64,000 nucleotides of DNA from the NCBI GenBank assembly GCA_022072445.1, contig JAJVHV010000005.1, positions 186,001 to 250,000 on the forward strand, given 5' to 3'. The notes below the pieces were generated by a model that saw nothing but the letters and a program-made list of their open reading frames with translations, ran no database searches and was not told the DNA's origin. The DNA comes from Phycisphaerae bacterium (GTDB taxonomy: Bacteria; Planctomycetota; Phycisphaerae; UBA1845; Fen-1342). Made by a program: the position numbers and the translations under genes. This document shows positions 8,142 to 17,727 of this stretch, piece by piece (position 1 is the first letter of the stretch; each line of letters starts with the position of its first letter).

Positions 8142-10232
8142 ATGAGCACGGCACTGGAGCTGAGCCCGATCGCGCGATTCGTGACGCGGCATCGCGGGCT
8201 GCTGTTTCCGGCGGCGATCGTGGCGCTGCTGTTCGTGATTCTCATCCCGCTGCCGACGTTCGTCCTCGATTTTCTGCTGATCGCCAACATCCTGCTCTCG
8301 ACGGTCGTGATGATGACCGTCATTTACATCCGCACGGCGCTGGAGTTCTCGAGCTTTCCGTCGCTGCTGCTGTCGCTGACGCTGCTGCGGCTGGTGCTGA
8401 ACATCGCCACGACGCGGCTGATCATCTCGAACGGCGAGAGCGGCACCGCCGCCGCCGGCCACGTGGTGCAGGCCTTCGGCGTGTTCGTCGCGGCCGGCTC
8501 GCTGGCGGTGGGCGTGATCATCTTTGTGATCATCACGGTGATTCAGTTCGTCGTGATCACGAAAGGCGCGACGCGCATCGCCGAGGTCGCGGCCCGCTTC
8601 ACGCTCGACGGCATGCCCGGCAAGCAGATGGCGATCGACGCGGACCTGAACGCGGGGATCATCAACGAGGCCGAAGCGCGGCGGCGGCGCGAGGAGATTT
8701 CAGCCGAGGCTGACTTTTACGGGGCGATGGACGGCGCCAGCAAATTCGTGCGGGGCGACGCGATCGCGGGCCTGGTGATCACGTTTGTCAACGTGCTGGG
8801 CGGCCTGTACGTCGGAATGGTCGAAGACGGCATGACGCTGTGGGAGTCGCTCGACGTCTTCACCAAGCTGACGATCGGCGACGGGCTGGCGTCGCAGATT
8901 CCGGCTTTCATTCTCTCGGTGGCCGCCGGCCTGCTGGTGACGCGCAACGCCGGCAAGTCGAACCTGGGCGAGGAGCTGCTGGGGCAGGTGTTCGCCAAGC
9001 CGGTGGCACTGGGGCTGACGTCGGGCTTCCTGGGCGTACTGGCACTGACGCCTCTGCCGACATTTCCGCTGCTGACGCTGGCGGCGGGCTGCTCGGGGAT
9101 GGCTCTCATGATGAATCGCAACCAGACCGCGCGGGCGGCAAAGAAAGCGGCCGACGAGCGCGCCCACGAGAAGAGCAAGCCGGAGAAGATCGAAGCGCAT
9201 TTGAAAGTGGACGCGCTGGAGCTTCAGCTCGGCTTCGGCCTGGTGCGCCTGGTGGATCGGACGCGCGGCGGCGACCTGCTGGATCGCATCGCCGCCCTGC
9301 GCCGCCAGACGGCGCTGGAGCACGGGCTGGTCATCCCGCCGGTGCGGATTCGCGACAGCGGCACGCTGCCGCCCAACAGCTACGCCGTCCTCATCCGCGG
9401 GCAGGACGTGGCGCGCGGCGAAATCTACCCGGATCAGTTCCTGGCGATCAACTCCGGCGTCGCCGAAGAGCCGCTCGCGGGCATTGAGACGGTCGAGCCC
9501 GCGTTCGGGCTGCGGGCGTACTGGGTGGCCGGCGAGGAGCGCACGCGAGCCGAGCGGCACAATTACACCGTGATCGACGCGAGCGGCGTCCTGATCACGC
9601 ACCTGACTGAGGTGATCCGCCGCAACGCGGCCGAGTTGCTGACGCGCGGCGAGACGCAGAAGCTGATCGACGCGCTGAAGGAGCGCAACGCGGCCCTGGT
9701 GGACGAGGTGATTCCCGCGCAGCTCAAGGTCGGCGACGTGCAGAAGGTGCTGCAAAACCTGCTGCGCGAGCGCGTGCCGATCCGCGACCTGGAAGTGGTG
9801 CTGGAAGCACTGGGCGACTGGGCGCCGCGCTCCAAGGATCCCGAGATTCTCAGCGAATACGCACGCAACGCACTGGCGCGGACCATCTGTGCGCAGTACC
9901 GCGACGAGAAGAACGTCATTCATTGCATCACACTCGATCCGGCGGTCGAAGACTATCTTCAGGCCGGCATACAGCGCTCGGAGCACGGTTCGGTGCTTTC
10001 CATGCCACCTGACCGTCAGGCGGCGCTGGCCATGAAGACCCGTCATCTCGTGGAGCGCGCCGCGCCGCAGGCCGGCGGCGCCACGCTGGCCGTCGTCTGC
10101 TCGCCAGTGGTGCGGATGTGGTTCCGCCGGCTGATCGAGCCGATGCTGCCGCAGACCCCCGTCCTGGCCCTGAACGAGATCGTGCGATCGGTCGAATTGC
10201 AGGCCCATGGAGTGGTGACCCTTGATGGATAG
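8142..10232 (+). CDS. flhA: Flagellar export protein FlhA
   Basis: This 696-residue protein has about seven or eight N-terminal membrane helices. The FHIPEP-family region is recognisable as LRLVLNIATTRLII, ATRIAEVAARFTLDGMPGKQMAIDADL and EISAEADFYGAMDGASKFVRGDAIAG. The C-terminal 350 residues form the cytoplasmic ring domain (residues from about 330) that docks export substrate-chaperone complexes. Length agrees with the family. The start follows CGGTGCGGGC. The last codons overlap the start of flhF by 8 bp, so translation of the two is probably coupled. Confidence 0.96.
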   Translation: MSTALELSPIARFVTRHRGLLFPAAIVALLFVILIPLPTFVLDFLLIANILLSTVVMMTVIYIRTALEFSSFPSLLLSLTLLRLVLNIATTRLIISNGESGTAAAGHVVQAFGVFVAAGSLAVGVIIFVIITVIQFVVITKGATRIAEVAARFTLDGMPGKQMAIDADLNAGIINEAEARRRREEISAEADFYGAMDGASKFVRGDAIAGLVITFVNVLGGLYVGMVEDGMTLWESLDVFTKLTIGDGLASQIPAFILSVAAGLLVTRNAGKSNLGEELLGQVFAKPVALGLTSGFLGVLALTPLPTFPLLTLAAGCSGMALMMNRNQTARAAKKAADERAHEKSKPEKIEAHLKVDALELQLGFGLVRLVDRTRGGDLLDRIAALRRQTALEHGLVIPPVRIRDSGTLPPNSYAVLIRGQDVARGEIYPDQFLAINSGVAEEPLAGIETVEPAFGLRAYWVAGEERTRAERHNYTVIDASGVLITHLTEVIRRNAAELLTRGETQKLIDALKERNAALVDEVIPAQLKVGDVQKVLQNLLRERVPIRDLEVVLEALGDWAPRSKDPEILSEYARNALARTICAQYRDEKNVIHCITLDPAVEDYLQAGIQRSEHGSVLSMPPDRQAALAMKTRHLVERAAPQAGGATLAVVCSPVVRMWFRRLIEPMLPQTPVLALNEIVRSVELQAHGVVTLDG

Positions 10233-11256
10233 GATTCGTACATTCCGCGCGGCCTCGATGCCCGAAGCGCTCGCGCTGGTGAAGCGCGAGTTCGGCGGCA
10301 ACGCCGTCATCCTCGGCACGCGCGCCGTCCAGCCCGACGGCATCGGCCGCCTCGTCCGCCGCGAATGGGTCGAGATCACGGCTTCGGCGGGCGGCGCGTC
10401 GCCGGGCGGGGCGGGCCGCGGCCGCGGTGCGGAGCCGCCGGCGGCGCCGCAGCGGAACGTCGCGCTTCCCGAGCACGTGCATCGCTACTATCAGCGGCTG
10501 GTCGAGAACGACGTGGCGCATGAGATCGCCGAACGGCTGGCGCGCTCCGTGCTCGGCCCGGCCGGTGCGCCGCCGCGGAACGAATCCCAGACTCGCCGCC
10601 GGCTGCAACAGCTCATCGCCCGTACGCTGCCGCCCTGCGAGACGCTTTCGCTGGCGGAGGGCCGCGCGACGCGGATTGCGCTACTGGGGCCGGCGGGCGG
10701 CGGAAAGACCACGACGCTGGCCAAGCTCGCGGCCCACTTCTGGCTCAAGCTCCGCAGGCCCGTCGCCATCATCTCGCTCGATCTCTTCCGCCTCGCGGCC
10801 CACGAGCAGATGCGGCGGTACGGCGAGATCATCGGTGTGCCGGTTCACACGGTCGGCACGGCTTCCGACGTTTCCGTGGCGCTCAAGGCCACCGCGGACG
10901 CGGCCCTCGTGCTGATCGACACGCCGGGCGTCAGCCCCGGCGACAGCGAGCGGCTGGCGCACGTCTCGGGACTGCTCGACGCCCTGTCGCCGGACGGCCG
11001 GCACCTCGTGCTTCCGGGCACGATGGCGGACCGCGCCCGGCAGCGCTGTGTTGAGGCGTTTAACCGACTGGCACCCACGCATGTCGTCCTGACACGGCTG
11101 GACGAGGCGGTCGGCTTCGGCGTCGTGCTGAACGCGCTGGATTCGCTTCGACTGAAGCTCAGCTACCTGACCACCGGGCAGCGCGTTCCAGGCGACATTA
11201 TTCCTGCTTGCAGTGATCGCCTAGCTGAGCTAGTATTACACGCCACCAGCGCCTGA
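10225..11256 (+). CDS. flhF: Flagellar biosynthesis SRP-family GTPase FlhF
   Basis: This 343-residue protein has an N-terminal FlhF B-domain (MDRIRTFRAASMPEALALVKREFGGNAVILGTR), then an NG GTPase domain. The P-loop is GPAGGGKTTT with Lys at about residue 161, followed by the SLDLFRLAAHEQM segment, LIDTPG and LTRLDEAVGFG. FlhF sets the position and number of flagella at the cell pole in other bacteria. ATG 10225 is chosen over the adjacent TTG 10222. Immediately downstream lies the FlhG-like partner that would normally stimulate FlhF GTP hydrolysis. Confidence 0.95.
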   Translation: MDRIRTFRAASMPEALALVKREFGGNAVILGTRAVQPDGIGRLVRREWVEITASAGGASPGGAGRGRGAEPPAAPQRNVALPEHVHRYYQRLVENDVAHEIAERLARSVLGPAGAPPRNESQTRRRLQQLIARTLPPCETLSLAEGRATRIALLGPAGGGKTTTLAKLAAHFWLKLRRPVAIISLDLFRLAAHEQMRRYGEIIGVPVHTVGTASDVSVALKATADAALVLIDTPGVSPGDSERLAHVSGLLDALSPDGRHLVLPGTMADRARQRCVEAFNRLAPTHVVLTRLDEAVGFGVVLNALDSLRLKLSYLTTGQRVPGDIIPACSDRLAELVLHATSA

Positions 11257-12022: not shown

Positions 12023-12079
12023 TTGCCCCGCGAAAGGCCGCACGGAAGCGGGCCGATAGGTAGACACGGATGTCAGGTA

Positions 12080-12355
12080 ATGACCAGGACCATTTCCGCC
12101 CAGATCGGGTTGTTGGCGTTCTCGCTCGCGACGGGGGCGGGTCTCGTGGCGCGCAATTCGGCGACGACGGTCTTGGTCCGCGCGCTGGTGGCGCTCGTGG
12201 TGGCGAGTCTGATCGCGCAGTGCGCCGCCTATTTCGCCCGCCAGATTCTCCGCGACGTGCTGATTCGCACCAAGTCTCGGATCGACGCGCAGCATCTCGA
12301 GGAACTCAAGACGATCGACAGCGAAGCCCCCGAGCCGGTTTCTGATGTGGCCTAG
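12080..12355 (+). CDS. Small membrane protein of unknown function in the flagellar cluster
   Basis: This 91-residue protein lies between the flhG-like gene and fliA. I do not recognise the family. It has two probable membrane helices (about residues 6-24, IGLLAFSLATGAGLVARNS-like, and 28-48, VRALVALVVASLIAQCAAYF). A charged cytoplasmic-looking tail follows: RQILRDVLIRTKSRIDAQHLEELKTI. The frame extends up to 12023, but the added residues are Arg/Gly-rich and unlike a leader, so ATG 12080 is preferred. Its stop lies 18 bp before fliA. Position alone suggests a link to flagellar placement or regulation. Confidence 0.6.
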   Translation: MTRTISAQIGLLAFSLATGAGLVARNSATTVLVRALVALVVASLIAQCAAYFARQILRDVLIRTKSRIDAQHLEELKTIDSEAPEPVSDVA

Positions 12356-12373: not shown

Positions 12374-13213
12374 ATGATCCGCCGACGATACGCCCAGCGC
12401 CGCGTGCGCACCATGACCCGCGAGGGTGTCGACCGCGCCTTCGAATCCGATCAACACCTGCAGGAAGCGTGGCGCGAGTTCAAGCGCACCGGCGAAGAGC
12501 GCGTCCGAAACCGCCTGATCGAGCACTATCTCTACCTGGTCAAGTTCAACGCCGAGCGCATCGGCGCCAAGCTGCCGGACGAAGTCGACGTCGACGATCT
12601 GATGAGCGCCGGAATCTTCGGCCTGGTCGACGCGATCGACGCGTTTGACCTGGAGCGCGGCGTGAAGTTCGAGACGTATTGCGCGCCGCGCATCCGCGGC
12701 GCGATGCTCGACGAGCTGCGCAACATGGACTGGGTGCCGCGGCTGGTGCGGCACCGCACGCACAAGCTCGACGACGCCACCCGCGCTCTGGAAACCGAGC
12801 TGGGACGCTTGCCGACCGAGGACGAGCTGCTGCGGCGGCTGGGGCTGTCGCGGCCGAGCTTCGAGCGGCTGATCCGCGACGCGAACGCCGTCTCGCTGGT
12901 CTCACTGTCGCGCAAGCACTACGACTCGGACTCGGAGCGCGACGTGCTGGAGATCGACGTGCTGTCGGATCAGCGGCGGACGGACGCGCTGACCCAGTCG
13001 CAGCGGCTGGACATCGAGGAGATCGTGCTCAAGCGGCTCAGCCGTGCGGAGCGGCTGATCGTGGTGCTGTATTACTACGAGCAGATGACGATGAAGGAAA
13101 TCGGCGCGACGCTCGACCTGTCCGAGTCGCGCGTCAGCCAGATGCACTCGTCGATTCTCGCGCGGCTCAAGGAGCACCTCGAACTGACCGCCGACGAGTG
13201 CGTCGCCGAGTAA
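12374..13213 (+). CDS. fliA: Flagellar sigma factor FliA (sigma-28/WhiG type)
   Basis: This 279-residue sigma factor has a complete sigma-70 group 3 layout. Region 2 has LIEHYLYLVKFNAERIGAKLP, DVDDLMSAGIFGLVDAIDAFD and GVKFETYCAPRIRGAMLDELRNMDWVPR. Region 3 is LETELGRLPTEDELLRRLGLS. Region 4 is LSRAERLIVVLYYYEQMTMKEIGATLDLSESRVSQMHSSILARLK. The segment GAMLDELRNMDWVPR is typical of FliA/WhiG. It would direct transcription of late flagellar genes such as flagellin. A CAGGAGAGGAAT site precedes ATG 12374. A strong hairpin follows the stop. Confidence 0.95.
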   Translation: MIRRRYAQRRVRTMTREGVDRAFESDQHLQEAWREFKRTGEERVRNRLIEHYLYLVKFNAERIGAKLPDEVDVDDLMSAGIFGLVDAIDAFDLERGVKFETYCAPRIRGAMLDELRNMDWVPRLVRHRTHKLDDATRALETELGRLPTEDELLRRLGLSRPSFERLIRDANAVSLVSLSRKHYDSDSERDVLEIDVLSDQRRTDALTQSQRLDIEEIVLKRLSRAERLIVVLYYYEQMTMKEIGATLDLSESRVSQMHSSILARLKEHLELTADECVAE

Positions 13214-13606: not shown

Positions 13607-15532
13607 ATGCCGACAGCGGACACGGACGTCCTCCCGCCCCAGGCGCCGCCGATCGACGCGTGCCGGGCGCGCTACCTTGCGAATCTGGCGGCACTCTACC
13701 GCGTTGATCCGCCGCTGGCGGCGACGATCGACGGCCTGCCGTTTGCAAGCCTTCCGCCGGTGGAATTGGCGCGCGACGGCCGGCTGACGGCGCGACTGAT
13801 CGCGGACGACGGAAAGCCGATCTACGCGCACAGCCGGTACGAGCCGGGGCGCGAAGCGCAGAGCCTGGTCGAGGCCATTCCGGAGGTGGACAGCGCGACG
13901 TTTGTGGTGACGGGCGTCGGACTTGGCCACCACGTACGAGAACTGGAGCGGCGTTTTGAGCGCCCGCTGCTGATCATCGCCGAGGATGACCTGTCGCTGC
14001 TCAAGGCGGCGCTGTGCGCCGTCGATCTAGCCGAACCGATCGCCCAGCGACGCCTGCTGATTGTCCCCTCCGCCGAGAAGAGCGACGTGCACGCACGGCT
14101 GACGAGCTGCAACGCTCCGATCATGCTCGGCACGCACTTTGTGACGCCGCCGCACGCCCGCCGCTACCACGCGGCATTTCAGGCGAAGCTGCGCGAGGAG
14201 TTCGCGAGCTTTGTGGCGTACTGCCGGCTGCAGATGATCACGCTGCTTCACAATGCCCGCATTACGTGCCGCAACATCGCGGCCAACCTGCCGCACTATC
14301 TGGCCAACCCGGGTGTCGAGGTGCTGGCCGGGGGGGCGCGCGGCCGGCCGGCGATTCTGGTGGCGGCCGGTCCGTCCCTGGCGCGGAACGTGCACCTGTT
14401 GCGCGAACTGCGCGGGCGGGCGGTGATCATCGCCGCGCAGACCGTCTTCAAAACCCTGCTGGCACAGGGCTGCCCGCCGCACTTCGTCACCAGCCTCGAT
14501 TTTCACGAAGTCTCGGCCGAATTTTTCCGCGGCGTGGAGGACGTGCAGGGCTGCACGCTGGTGGCCGAGCCGAAGGCGACCTGGCACGTGCTGGACGCCT
14601 ATCCCGGCCGGCGTCATGTGCTGCACAGCGTGTTCGCCGACGACCTGCTGCGTGACGCCGCGCCGTCGCGTGGTCGGCTGCGAGCGGGCGCGACGGTGGC
14701 GCACCTGTCGTTCTATCTGGCCGAGCAGTTGGGCTGCGATCCGATCATCCTGATCGGGCAGGACCTGGCGTATTCCGACGGACTCTACTACCCGCCGGGC
14801 ATGCCGATCGAGGAAATCTGGAGTCCCGAGCTGGATCGCTTCTGCACGGTCGAGATGAAGCAGTGGGAGCGCATCGCGCGTTTCCGTCCGATTCTGCACC
14901 ACGTCAAGGACGTGCACGGCCGCGAGACGTACACCGACGACCAGTTGCTGAACTACGCCCAGCAGTTCCAGATCGACTTCGCCGCCTCGCCGGCGCGCGT
15001 CATTCACGCCTGTGAGGGCGGGATGCAGCTCAGTGGCGTGGAGTGCATGACGTTGCGGGACGCCGCGGAGCGCTGGTGCCGCGGGGCGCTGCCGGATGGG
15101 CTCTTCGGCGAGTCGGGCGTGGTCGACGCCGGCGCGGCGTTCGCCGCGGCGCGCGCGGCGCTGGCCGAACGGCAGCGCGAGGTGTCCGCGATCCGCGACA
15201 TCTGCACGCAGATGCTGAAGAACCTCGAACGGCTGGTTGGGCTTGTCGAGCGGCCCGACGAGTTCAACCGCGTGGTCGTGCAGGTCGACGCGCTGCGCGT
15301 CCGGATCCAGGCGTTCGAGCGCACCTACCGGATGGTGGTCGACGTCTCTCAACAGGCCGAGCTGCGCCGCTTCGCCGCGGATCGCCGCATGTCGGGCACT
15401 TCGCAGGAGACGGCCGCGTCGGCGCGCCGGCGGCTGGAGCGTGACCGCGACTTTGTCGCCGCGCTGCGCGACGGCTGCGACTACCTCGGCTCGCTGCTGG
15501 ATTTTGCCGCCGGGCGCCTGGAGGCCGCGTGA
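13607..15532 (+). CDS. DUF115/Maf-type motility accessory protein
   Basis: This 641-residue protein has a central DUF115 (MAF_flag10) domain, roughly residues 240-440. Its motifs are ILVAAGPSLARNVHLL, AQTVFKTLLAQGCPPHFVTSLD, GATVAHLSFYLAEQLGCDPIILIGQDLAY and the following DGLYYPPG. Proteins of this family (Maf, motility accessory factors) are linked to glycosylation of flagellin with nonulosonic acids in Campylobacter and relatives. The N-terminal 230 residues resemble the usual Maf N-domain (VVTGVGLGHHVRELERRF). The C-terminal 200 residues are helical. The gene overlaps the next one by 4 bp (GTGA), so the two products are probably made together. No flagellin or nonulosonic acid synthesis gene is in the window. 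Confidence 0.85.
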   Translation: MPTADTDVLPPQAPPIDACRARYLANLAALYRVDPPLAATIDGLPFASLPPVELARDGRLTARLIADDGKPIYAHSRYEPGREAQSLVEAIPEVDSATFVVTGVGLGHHVRELERRFERPLLIIAEDDLSLLKAALCAVDLAEPIAQRRLLIVPSAEKSDVHARLTSCNAPIMLGTHFVTPPHARRYHAAFQAKLREEFASFVAYCRLQMITLLHNARITCRNIAANLPHYLANPGVEVLAGGARGRPAILVAAGPSLARNVHLLRELRGRAVIIAAQTVFKTLLAQGCPPHFVTSLDFHEVSAEFFRGVEDVQGCTLVAEPKATWHVLDAYPGRRHVLHSVFADDLLRDAAPSRGRLRAGATVAHLSFYLAEQLGCDPIILIGQDLAYSDGLYYPPGMPIEEIWSPELDRFCTVEMKQWERIARFRPILHHVKDVHGRETYTDDQLLNYAQQFQIDFAASPARVIHACEGGMQLSGVECMTLRDAAERWCRGALPDGLFGESGVVDAGAAFAAARAALAERQREVSAIRDICTQMLKNLERLVGLVERPDEFNRVVVQVDALRVRIQAFERTYRMVVDVSQQAELRRFAADRRMSGTSQETAASARRRLERDRDFVAALRDGCDYLGSLLDFAAGRLEAA

Positions 15533-17166
15533 CGACGGTGGCGGCGGTTTTCGCGTCGTTTGACGAGTCGTTCCTGGGCGGTCCGTCGCCGCTGGATCGA
15601 GCGCTCGGCACGCGCAGCGTCCTGGGCCACACGCTTCATCGGGCGGCGCAGATCGCCGGCGTCGATCGCCGCTGTGTCTTCACGCATCCCGCGCACGAGG
15701 AGGCGGCGCGCGGCGCGCTGCATGCCAGCGGCCTGGAGAATGCGTTTGAGGTTCTGGCGATCGACTCGGGTGCCCGGCCGCGGCGGCGGCTGATGCGCTC
15801 GGCACGCAAGTGGGCCCTGGGTCGCTGGCGGGCGAACGTCTGTGCGGCGACGTGCTTTGATGAGTACGTCGAACCTTACTGCGTCGCCCAGGTGCTTGAT
15901 CACTACCAGGCAGCAGCCGTCCTGTGCCTGGACGGCACACAGGCGGCGCTCGACCCGCGGATCGCCAGCGACATGCTGCAGCGCTGCGACGAAAGCGGCG
16001 ATCGCCCGCGCCTGGTCTTCACGCAGGCCCCGCCCGGACTGGCCGGCCTGCTGCTGCGGCGCGACCTGGTCGCCGACCTGGTGCAGCAGAATCTGACCGT
16101 CGGCGTGACGCTGGCGTATCGGCCGGAGTCGCCGCAGCAGGACCCGATCACCAAGGCATCGTGCCTGCGCGTCGACCCGGCCGTCGCGCAGTCGAGCGGC
16201 CGGTTCTTCGTCGACACGCGGTTTTCGGCCGAGACGGTCGCCGAGGCGTGGGGCGCGCTGGGCGAAGATGCCGACGCCGCGGCGATTTGCCGCTGGGCGC
16301 GCGAGAATCCGCGCGACGGCGGCCTGCCGGCCGAAGTAGAGCTGGAGCTCACGACGCGCGATCCCCTGCCCGACACCACGCTGCGGCCGCGCGGGGAGCG
16401 CGTGCCGCGCCGCGCGCTGGAGTCGGCCGCGACACTGCGGCCCGCGTTCGAGGAATTCGCCCGATACGACGATCGCTTGCTCGTGCTCGGCGGCTTCGGC
16501 GACCCGCTGGCTTGCGAGCACTTCGGCGACGTGTGCGCCGTGGCGCGCGGCTGCGGAATTGCGGGTATCGCCGTCGTTACGCCGCTGGTCGAGCTCTCCG
16601 ACCGGCAGATCGAGGCGCTGATTGAGCACGGCGTGGACGTGCTGCAAGTTCTGCTCGACGCCGATACGCCGGAGACCTACCGCCGCGTGCACGGCGCCGA
16701 TCGCTTCCACGACGTGGTGCGGAACATCGAGCGCATCCAGGAAGTGCGTCAGTCGCGGCTCTCGCCGCAGCCACTCATCGTCCCGACGATCACGCGTTGC
16801 GCGGCGACGCTGGGCGAGATCGAGGCGTTCTACGACCGCTGGATTCAGGCGGTGGGGTCGGCCGTAATCTCGGGGTATTCGGACTTCGGCGGGCAGCTTC
16901 CGGTCGGCACGCTTCTCCCAGTGACGCCGCCAGTCCGCGGTGCTTGCCGGCGGCTTTCGCGGCGAATGATGCTGCTGGCGGACGGGCGGGCGGTGAGCTG
17001 CGATCAGGATGTTCTGGGACGGCAGGCGGTGGGCGATTGGAGGCGGCAGCGGCTGTCGGAAATCTGGGCCGGTGCGGGGTTGGGAGCGATCAGGCGATGC
17101 AATGCCGAGCGCGATTTCGGCGGGACCCCGGCGTGCGCGAGTTGCGGAGAGTGGTTCCGGCCGTAG
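15529..17166 (+). CDS. Nucleotidyltransferase-like/SPASM fusion with degenerate radical SAM core
   Basis: This 545-residue protein starts at GTG 15529 and overlaps the Maf gene by 4 bp. Residues 1-250 resemble a sugar nucleotidyltransferase fold (DRALGTRSVLGHTLHRAAQIAG, LDGTQAALDPRIASDMLQRC). Residues 260-500 follow a radical SAM TIM-barrel pattern: the first-strand motif normally reads TTxCxxxCxxC. Here it is TTRDPLPDTTLRP (residues 275-287), with Asp278, Asp282 and Leu285 at the three cysteine positions. The C-terminal SPASM-like region keeps five cysteines (GAC at about 470, SCDQD, RRCN and CASC near the end). Loss of the SAM-binding cluster should abolish radical SAM chemistry. It recalls spiro-SPASM proteins of spirochaetes, from memory. 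A role in flagellar or surface modification is inferred from its Maf neighbour. Confidence 0.75.
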   Translation: MTTVAAVFASFDESFLGGPSPLDRALGTRSVLGHTLHRAAQIAGVDRRCVFTHPAHEEAARGALHASGLENAFEVLAIDSGARPRRRLMRSARKWALGRWRANVCAATCFDEYVEPYCVAQVLDHYQAAAVLCLDGTQAALDPRIASDMLQRCDESGDRPRLVFTQAPPGLAGLLLRRDLVADLVQQNLTVGVTLAYRPESPQQDPITKASCLRVDPAVAQSSGRFFVDTRFSAETVAEAWGALGEDADAAAICRWARENPRDGGLPAEVELELTTRDPLPDTTLRPRGERVPRRALESAATLRPAFEEFARYDDRLLVLGGFGDPLACEHFGDVCAVARGCGIAGIAVVTPLVELSDRQIEALIEHGVDVLQVLLDADTPETYRRVHGADRFHDVVRNIERIQEVRQSRLSPQPLIVPTITRCAATLGEIEAFYDRWIQAVGSAVISGYSDFGGQLPVGTLLPVTPPVRGACRRLSRRMMLLADGRAVSCDQDVLGRQAVGDWRRQRLSEIWAGAGLGAIRRCNAERDFGGTPACASCGEWFRP

Positions 17167-17448: not shown

Positions 17449-17727
17449 GTGTCAGAGACGATCAAGTGCGCATGTCCTGAGTGCGGCGCCAAGTATCGAC
17501 TCCCCGTCGAAACACAGGGTCGAAAGGCCCGGTGCAAGAAGTGCGGGAAGCCGTTCGAGGTGCCCAAGAGCGACGGCCTGGAAGACAGCATCCTGGCGTG
17601 GCTCAACGAACCCGAGGACGACGAAGCTCCCGCGCAGCCGCGCGTCATCAGCATGCAGGCTGAGGCCGCCGACCCGGACGCGGTGAAGAAGTCGCGCGGT
17701 CCGATTCGGATGAAGTCCGAGCCTTAG
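17449..17727 (+). CDS. Small zinc-ribbon protein
   Basis: This 92-residue protein starts at GTG 17449 after GGGGTGAG. Residues 7-40 form a zinc ribbon with two knuckles, CPECGAKYRLP and CKKCGKPFEVP, of the type found at the N-terminus of many planctomycete and deltaproteobacterial proteins (zinc_ribbon/MJ0042-like). The rest is acidic then basic, with no catalytic domain or membrane helix. The function is unknown; a protein- or nucleic-acid-binding role is only a guess. It lies 8 bp before mutY and probably shares its transcript. Confidence 0.7.
   Translation: MSETIKCACPECGAKYRLPVETQGRKARCKKCGKPFEVPKSDGLEDSILAWLNEPEDDEAPAQPRVISMQAEAADPDAVKKSRGPIRMKSEP

Follow-up and report, generated by a model that had tools for sequence, protein, structure and literature searches.

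Directly downstream of a maf gene, the stretch of Phycisphaerae DNA analyzed here (64,000 nucleotides, hereafter the window) encodes a spiroSPASM-like protein. As judged by comparison with homologues across the phylum, this protein joins a cytidylyltransferase-fold domain to a radical-SAM-type barrel that has lost the CxxxCxxC motif and to a Twitch/short SPASM tail, and its gene is genetically coupled to the Maf/DUF115 gene. Maf proteins are believed to decorate the flagellum with sialic-acid-like sugars. We see about an even chance that the spiroSPASM-like protein, non-radical and doubly degenerate, serves the Maf flagellin glycosyltransferase as an accessory subunit, with a nulosonic acid as donor. 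Such a subunit would bind Maf, and its altered cytidylyltransferase pocket (R93, W100-R101-G102, D111-E112, R225 and D229, with Ala at the G102 position in the window protein) would hold the activated nulosonic acid, or the CMP part of it, for transfer. The barrel and tail would recognize flagellin, SAM would not be cleaved, and cytidylyl transfer would probably not take place either. A functionally open, named family would thereby gain a testable role as Maf partner in nulosonic acid flagellin glycosylation. The protein is also a case of two enzyme folds that have lost key catalytic motifs within one polypeptide retained through a large clade.

Table 1. Position of the spiroSPASM-like gene, its domains and the surrounding flagellar genes in the window
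Feature	Position	Strand	Basis or remark
flhA	8142-10232	+	ORFs; identity by reading the sequence
flhF	10222-11256	+	ORFs; identity by reading the sequence
FliA-type flagellar sigma factor	12374..13213	+	Sigma70 regions 2, 3, 4; upstream, same strand run
Maf/DUF115 (PF01973 MptE-like) glycosyltransferase gene	13607..15532	+	Pfam PF01973 E 6e-37; NF050051 FlagModPseD E 2e-20
spiroSPASM-like protein gene	15529..17166	+	545 aa, GTG start
N-terminal cytidylyltransferase-fold domain, residues ~1-260	15529..16308	+	profiles, Pfam in members, fold comparison, conservation
Radical-SAM-type barrel without CxxxCxxC, residues 262-460	16312..16908	+	PF04055; profile matches to radical SAM structures
Former CxxxCxxC strand, residues 275-286: TTRDPLPDTTLR	16351..16386	+	
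C-terminal Twitch/short SPASM, residues 466-545, C473 C491 C536 C539	16924..17163	+	PF13186; BtrN alignment

The window protein matched the Pfam models Radical_SAM (PF04055, residues 299-409, E 5e-8) and SPASM (PF13186, residues 473-539, E 5e-7) above their gathering scores as well as the NCBIfam family TIGR04321 (E 3e-26). The radical SAM/SPASM derivation proposed in the preliminary description was borne out by these matches; the contrary outcome, a profile search without any such similarity, did not occur. A phmmer search of the PDB with the single protein gave only chance matches, so that profiles were required, and plasmid tblastn did not find a full-length relative, its matches being confined to the radical SAM/SPASM half. 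Homologues were detected in 96 out of 101 genomes of the window's order (E<=0.001), 95 of them in full and one as a weak match. The analyses below are based on 62 distinct full-length homologues: a first set of 43 (30 from the order, 3 from a scan of genome contigs and 10 from elsewhere in the phylum) and 19 further ones. Two small genes were noticed in the surroundings. A 110-aa ORF at 12023-12355, between the flhG-like and fliA genes, had no Pfam match, and a small zinc-ribbon protein (PF13717-like) is encoded at 17449-17727, shortly downstream of the spiroSPASM gene.

Coupling to Maf and the nulosonic acid pathway

The maf and spiroSPASM genes share the four bases GTGA at 15529-15532, an overlap that, like the ORF and its coordinates, had been given correctly in the preliminary description. 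Among 35 loci measured, 27 show it with exactly 4 bp. The coupling to Maf proposed there was supported and is stricter than had been assumed, comprising co-occurrence, fusion and nearby nulosonate genes. Each sampled genome with a spiroSPASM-like protein also has a Maf/DUF115 gene. Among 40 genomes of the class besides the window's own, 27 carried both genes and 13 carried neither (Fisher 8e-11). In the phylum sample, 83 out of 392 genomes had PF01973. These include each of the 45 genomes that encode a full-length spiroSPASM-like protein, corresponding to a hypergeometric value of 2e-36 which overstates independence because the genomes are related. A true homologue is missing from six genomes of the order (five unmatched genomes and the one with the weak match, G096); all six lack Maf, and three of them have flagellin. 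Thus, the spiroSPASM-like protein follows Maf rather than flagella as such. Several Planctomycetota, e.g. those of family f22, have the PF01973 gene alone, which indicates that Maf does not always need a spiroSPASM partner. In one genome of the order (G012) the two genes are located on different contigs. Nearly complete genomes of one family of the class (f14) were observed to contain flagellin and to lack both Maf and spiroSPASM.

Three Phycisphaerales MAGs (L031, L032, L033) encode Maf-spiroSPASM fusions that were confirmed by reading frame and domain content. They consist of a single frame of ~1190 to 1360 aa with PF01973 and a spiroSPASM-like region in which the tail cysteines are gone. 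Equal frame lengths for both matches on the same contig indicated 18 further probable fusions. Three families of the class account for 17 of these, and the remaining one (G280) belongs to a family that is not part of the class. Two genomes of the class (G395 and G460) showed fused frames with weak PF01973 scores, and flagellin was not detected in them; these fusions are perhaps decaying or serving another target.

Strong NeuB matches (PF03102) were obtained for every spiroSPASM-positive genome among 61 tested, and two genomes without spiroSPASM (G006 and G057) gave weak NeuB matches only. In the window's genome, genes for a NeuA/PseF-like cytidylyltransferase, NeuB and a hydrolysing NeuC-type epimerase lie in a row on contig C5 (L094:5908-8836), outside the flagellar cluster. 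Such a NeuA-like/NeuB/NeuC set directly adjoins maf-spiroSPASM in G031, and NeuC adjoins the pair in G027 and G051. From this set we infer that the sugar is likely a nulosonic acid of the Neu or legionaminic type, the NeuC-type epimerase pointing to these rather than to pseudaminic acid. The pathway may also serve other glycoconjugates. In several relatives a conserved gene was found between the nulosonate-pathway side and maf-spiroSPASM (L095:7068-7970, L096:8262-9257, L097:6149-7036, L098:1107-2072). Its product, with a motif of roughly AxxxIGDIATLPxVT, looks HDOD-like by eye; the L096 copy had no NCBIfam match.

The N-terminal domain

Residues 1-260 of the window protein alone gave no Pfam match. 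Several of the 41 members examined matched nucleotidyltransferase models, namely NTP_transf_3 (19/41), IspD (8/41) and CTP_transf_3 (5/41), and when the PDB was searched with a profile of the domain, it matched IspD and KdsB (E 8e-5). Fold comparison by Foldseek and VIA-align grouped the domain with cytidylyltransferases, the best match (Z 15.0; 159 residues, rmsd 2.4) being the Leptospira cytidylyltransferase 6oew. The underlying structure prediction was derived from four rows with a low mean pLDDT of 53.6 and was used for the fold assignment of this domain alone, where it is backed by the profiles. The nucleotidyltransferase-like N-terminus recognized earlier is therefore well founded as a fold, which residues 1-260 have in common with the CMP-Kdo, CMP-nulosonate and IspD cytidylyltransferases.

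In contrast to the canonical enzymes, which possess a triphosphate loop and the metal-binding Asp of the QGDEP motif, the N-domain lacks the RxxSxRLPGK-type triphosphate-binding loop with its glycine, arginine and lysine residues, and the Asp is not conserved. The column of the KdsB QGDEP metal Asp holds His in 21 out of 43 and Asp in 5 out of 43 sequences, most members having His, Thr, Ala, Ser or Glu. Other positions are strongly conserved. R93, W100, R101, E112, G170 and R225 are invariant and D229 nearly so in the 41-row alignment, and all seven are still nearly invariant in the second homologue set, fusions included. By this conservation the domain keeps a conserved pocket of its own kind. 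In KdsB, the counterpart of D229-T230 may be the metal Asp of the DTPED motif.

The main rival to the accessory subunit is an active but unusual N-domain, i.e. one with cytidylyltransferase or GT-A-like glycosyltransferase activity that produces the activated sugar for Maf or passes it on, with barrel and tail as scaffold. We regard this as possible but rather unlikely. The clear cytidylyltransferase fold, the near-invariance of the pocket residues through all lineages and the possible metal Asp are consistent with it. The invariant pocket might just as well be a functional active site of a different type. It is opposed by the missing loop and the replacement of the QGDEP Asp in most members. 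Moreover, a separate cytidylyltransferase with the canonical loop adjoins NeuB on contig C5, and PF02348 enzymes were present in all 61 genomes tested. On the same three grounds, loop, metal Asp and separate canonical enzyme, cytidylyl transfer as the activity of the window protein, as suggested in the preliminary description, was not supported. A role as sole CMP-nulosonate synthetase was also considered and is disfavoured by the canonical enzyme beside NeuB.

The C-terminal tail and the barrel

Five SPASM-like cysteines had been reported for the tail. All five are present in the window protein, but only C473, C491, C536 and C539 are conserved; C524 is not. In a profile search (E 1.5e-13) these four aligned without gaps to the four auxiliary-cluster cysteines of BtrN, which argues for a Twitch-type site for one cluster and not for a full SPASM domain with seven cysteines and two clusters. 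By sequence, the window protein thus has the cysteines for at least one putative auxiliary cluster. The BtrN Twitch domain binds one fully ligated [4Fe-4S] cluster (PMC6231123). BtrN-type enzymes share the four-cysteine site and keep the SAM cluster, which the window protein lacks. Of the first set, 39 out of 43 loci have the full site, as do 8 of the 19 further ones (47/62). In the other 15 homologues the cysteines are incomplete or absent: three keep three out of four, and the rest, among them the three confirmed Maf fusions, are without the site.

Most members could hence plausibly bind a cluster, as had been suggested. Cluster binding is nevertheless ruled out as the core function, because the cysteines decayed in 15 out of 62 homologues while the link to Maf was kept. 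This weighs against a retained Fe-S redox function, in which the Twitch-type cluster would be an electron-transfer or redox/iron-sensing element controlling Maf or flagellin modification. The complete site in 47 homologues and the fully ligated cluster of BtrN agree with such a function; we consider it unlikely given the persistence of the Maf link without a full site, including in all three confirmed fusions. A very unlikely extension of the accessory-subunit reading would combine both ideas: the protein would be an obligate Maf subunit assembled from two dead enzymes, a cytidylyltransferase and a radical SAM enzyme. In most lineages the redox or iron state would gate glycosylation through a retained auxiliary Fe-S cluster, which would have been dispensed with upon fusion to Maf.

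The strand of the barrel that normally carries CxxxCxxC reads ELTTRDPLPDTTLRPRG in the window protein, with Asp278, Asp282 and Leu285 at the three cysteine places, as described before. Homologues with CxxxCxxC at this position were looked for, and none of the 62 carried the motif (0/44 and 0/30 alignment rows, 12 duplicates removed). Standalone radical SAM/SPASM relatives, retrieved with the same profile and processed in the same way, served as control and displayed the motif in 16 of 22 rows. The remaining six are partial alignments outside the motif, so that 16 out of 16 rows covering it keep CxxxCxxC. Within the order the altered strand is strongly conserved as ELTTxDPLPxTTLRPRG, which shows that it was rebuilt and did not simply erode. 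A sequencing or frame artefact was ruled out by the conservation of this strand across independent genomes. The barrel thus retains the fold, by PF04055 and profile matches to radical SAM structures, and not the site of the SAM cluster, and radical SAM activity was rejected on the missing motif. That the protein works as a radical SAM enzyme through a non-canonical cluster site is hardly credible in spite of the conserved barrel, since varying non-Cys residues occupy the three motif columns among the 62 homologues and the GxGEP motif reads GxGDP in most members, with Asp in place of the SAM-contact Glu.

Relation to named families

The nearest named family is NCBIfam spiro-SPASM, TIGR04321, to which the window protein scored 92.2 bits against a cut-off of 250. 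None of 149 genomes of the phylum exceeded this cut-off, the highest score being 159 bits (L034). Homologues outside the order (L034, L035, L036, L037, L040) aligned with profile positions from 75-506 to 96-505 of 510, the window protein with 207-506. The former therefore have the N-domain half in common with TIGR04321 and agree with it in length architecture. At the CxxxCxxC columns the TIGR04321 model shows a weak preference for Cys, whereas the planctomycete clade is wholly without the motif. To probe this preference, altered copies of the window protein were scored against the model. Placing the three cysteines in register raised the score by ~9 bits, ~8 above an alanine control, i.e. a preference of ~2.7 bits per site, whereas removal of one SPASM cysteine cost ~7 bits. 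This weak preference of the model suggests, indirectly, that many spirochaete members may also lack CxxxCxxC.

A pseudo-SAM/SPASM protein as such is already known, the named precedent being the haloarchaeal family TIGR04347. This is a different family, which weakly matched two homologues (L034, L038); among the matches listed, none was to the window protein. To our knowledge, TIGR04347 has no N-terminal cytidylyltransferase domain. New here are the cytidylyltransferase-like domain with a catalytic-signature loss of its own and the strict coupling to Maf. The PseD-type Maf flagellin glycosyltransferases that operate with NeuABC belong to the same PF01973 family as the gene adjacent to spiroSPASM, and the pathway genes are present here as well. 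None of the Maf systems studied in Campylobacter, Aeromonas or Clostridium is known to us to have a spiroSPASM partner. If the accessory-subunit reading is true, the spirochaete spiro-SPASM proteins may share this role, which bears on how spirochaete flagellins are modified. A literature search for 'spiro-SPASM' returned no match; TPASS_0285 of T. pallidum is listed as an Fe-S protein (SPASM) and serves as a lead only (PMC4403809).
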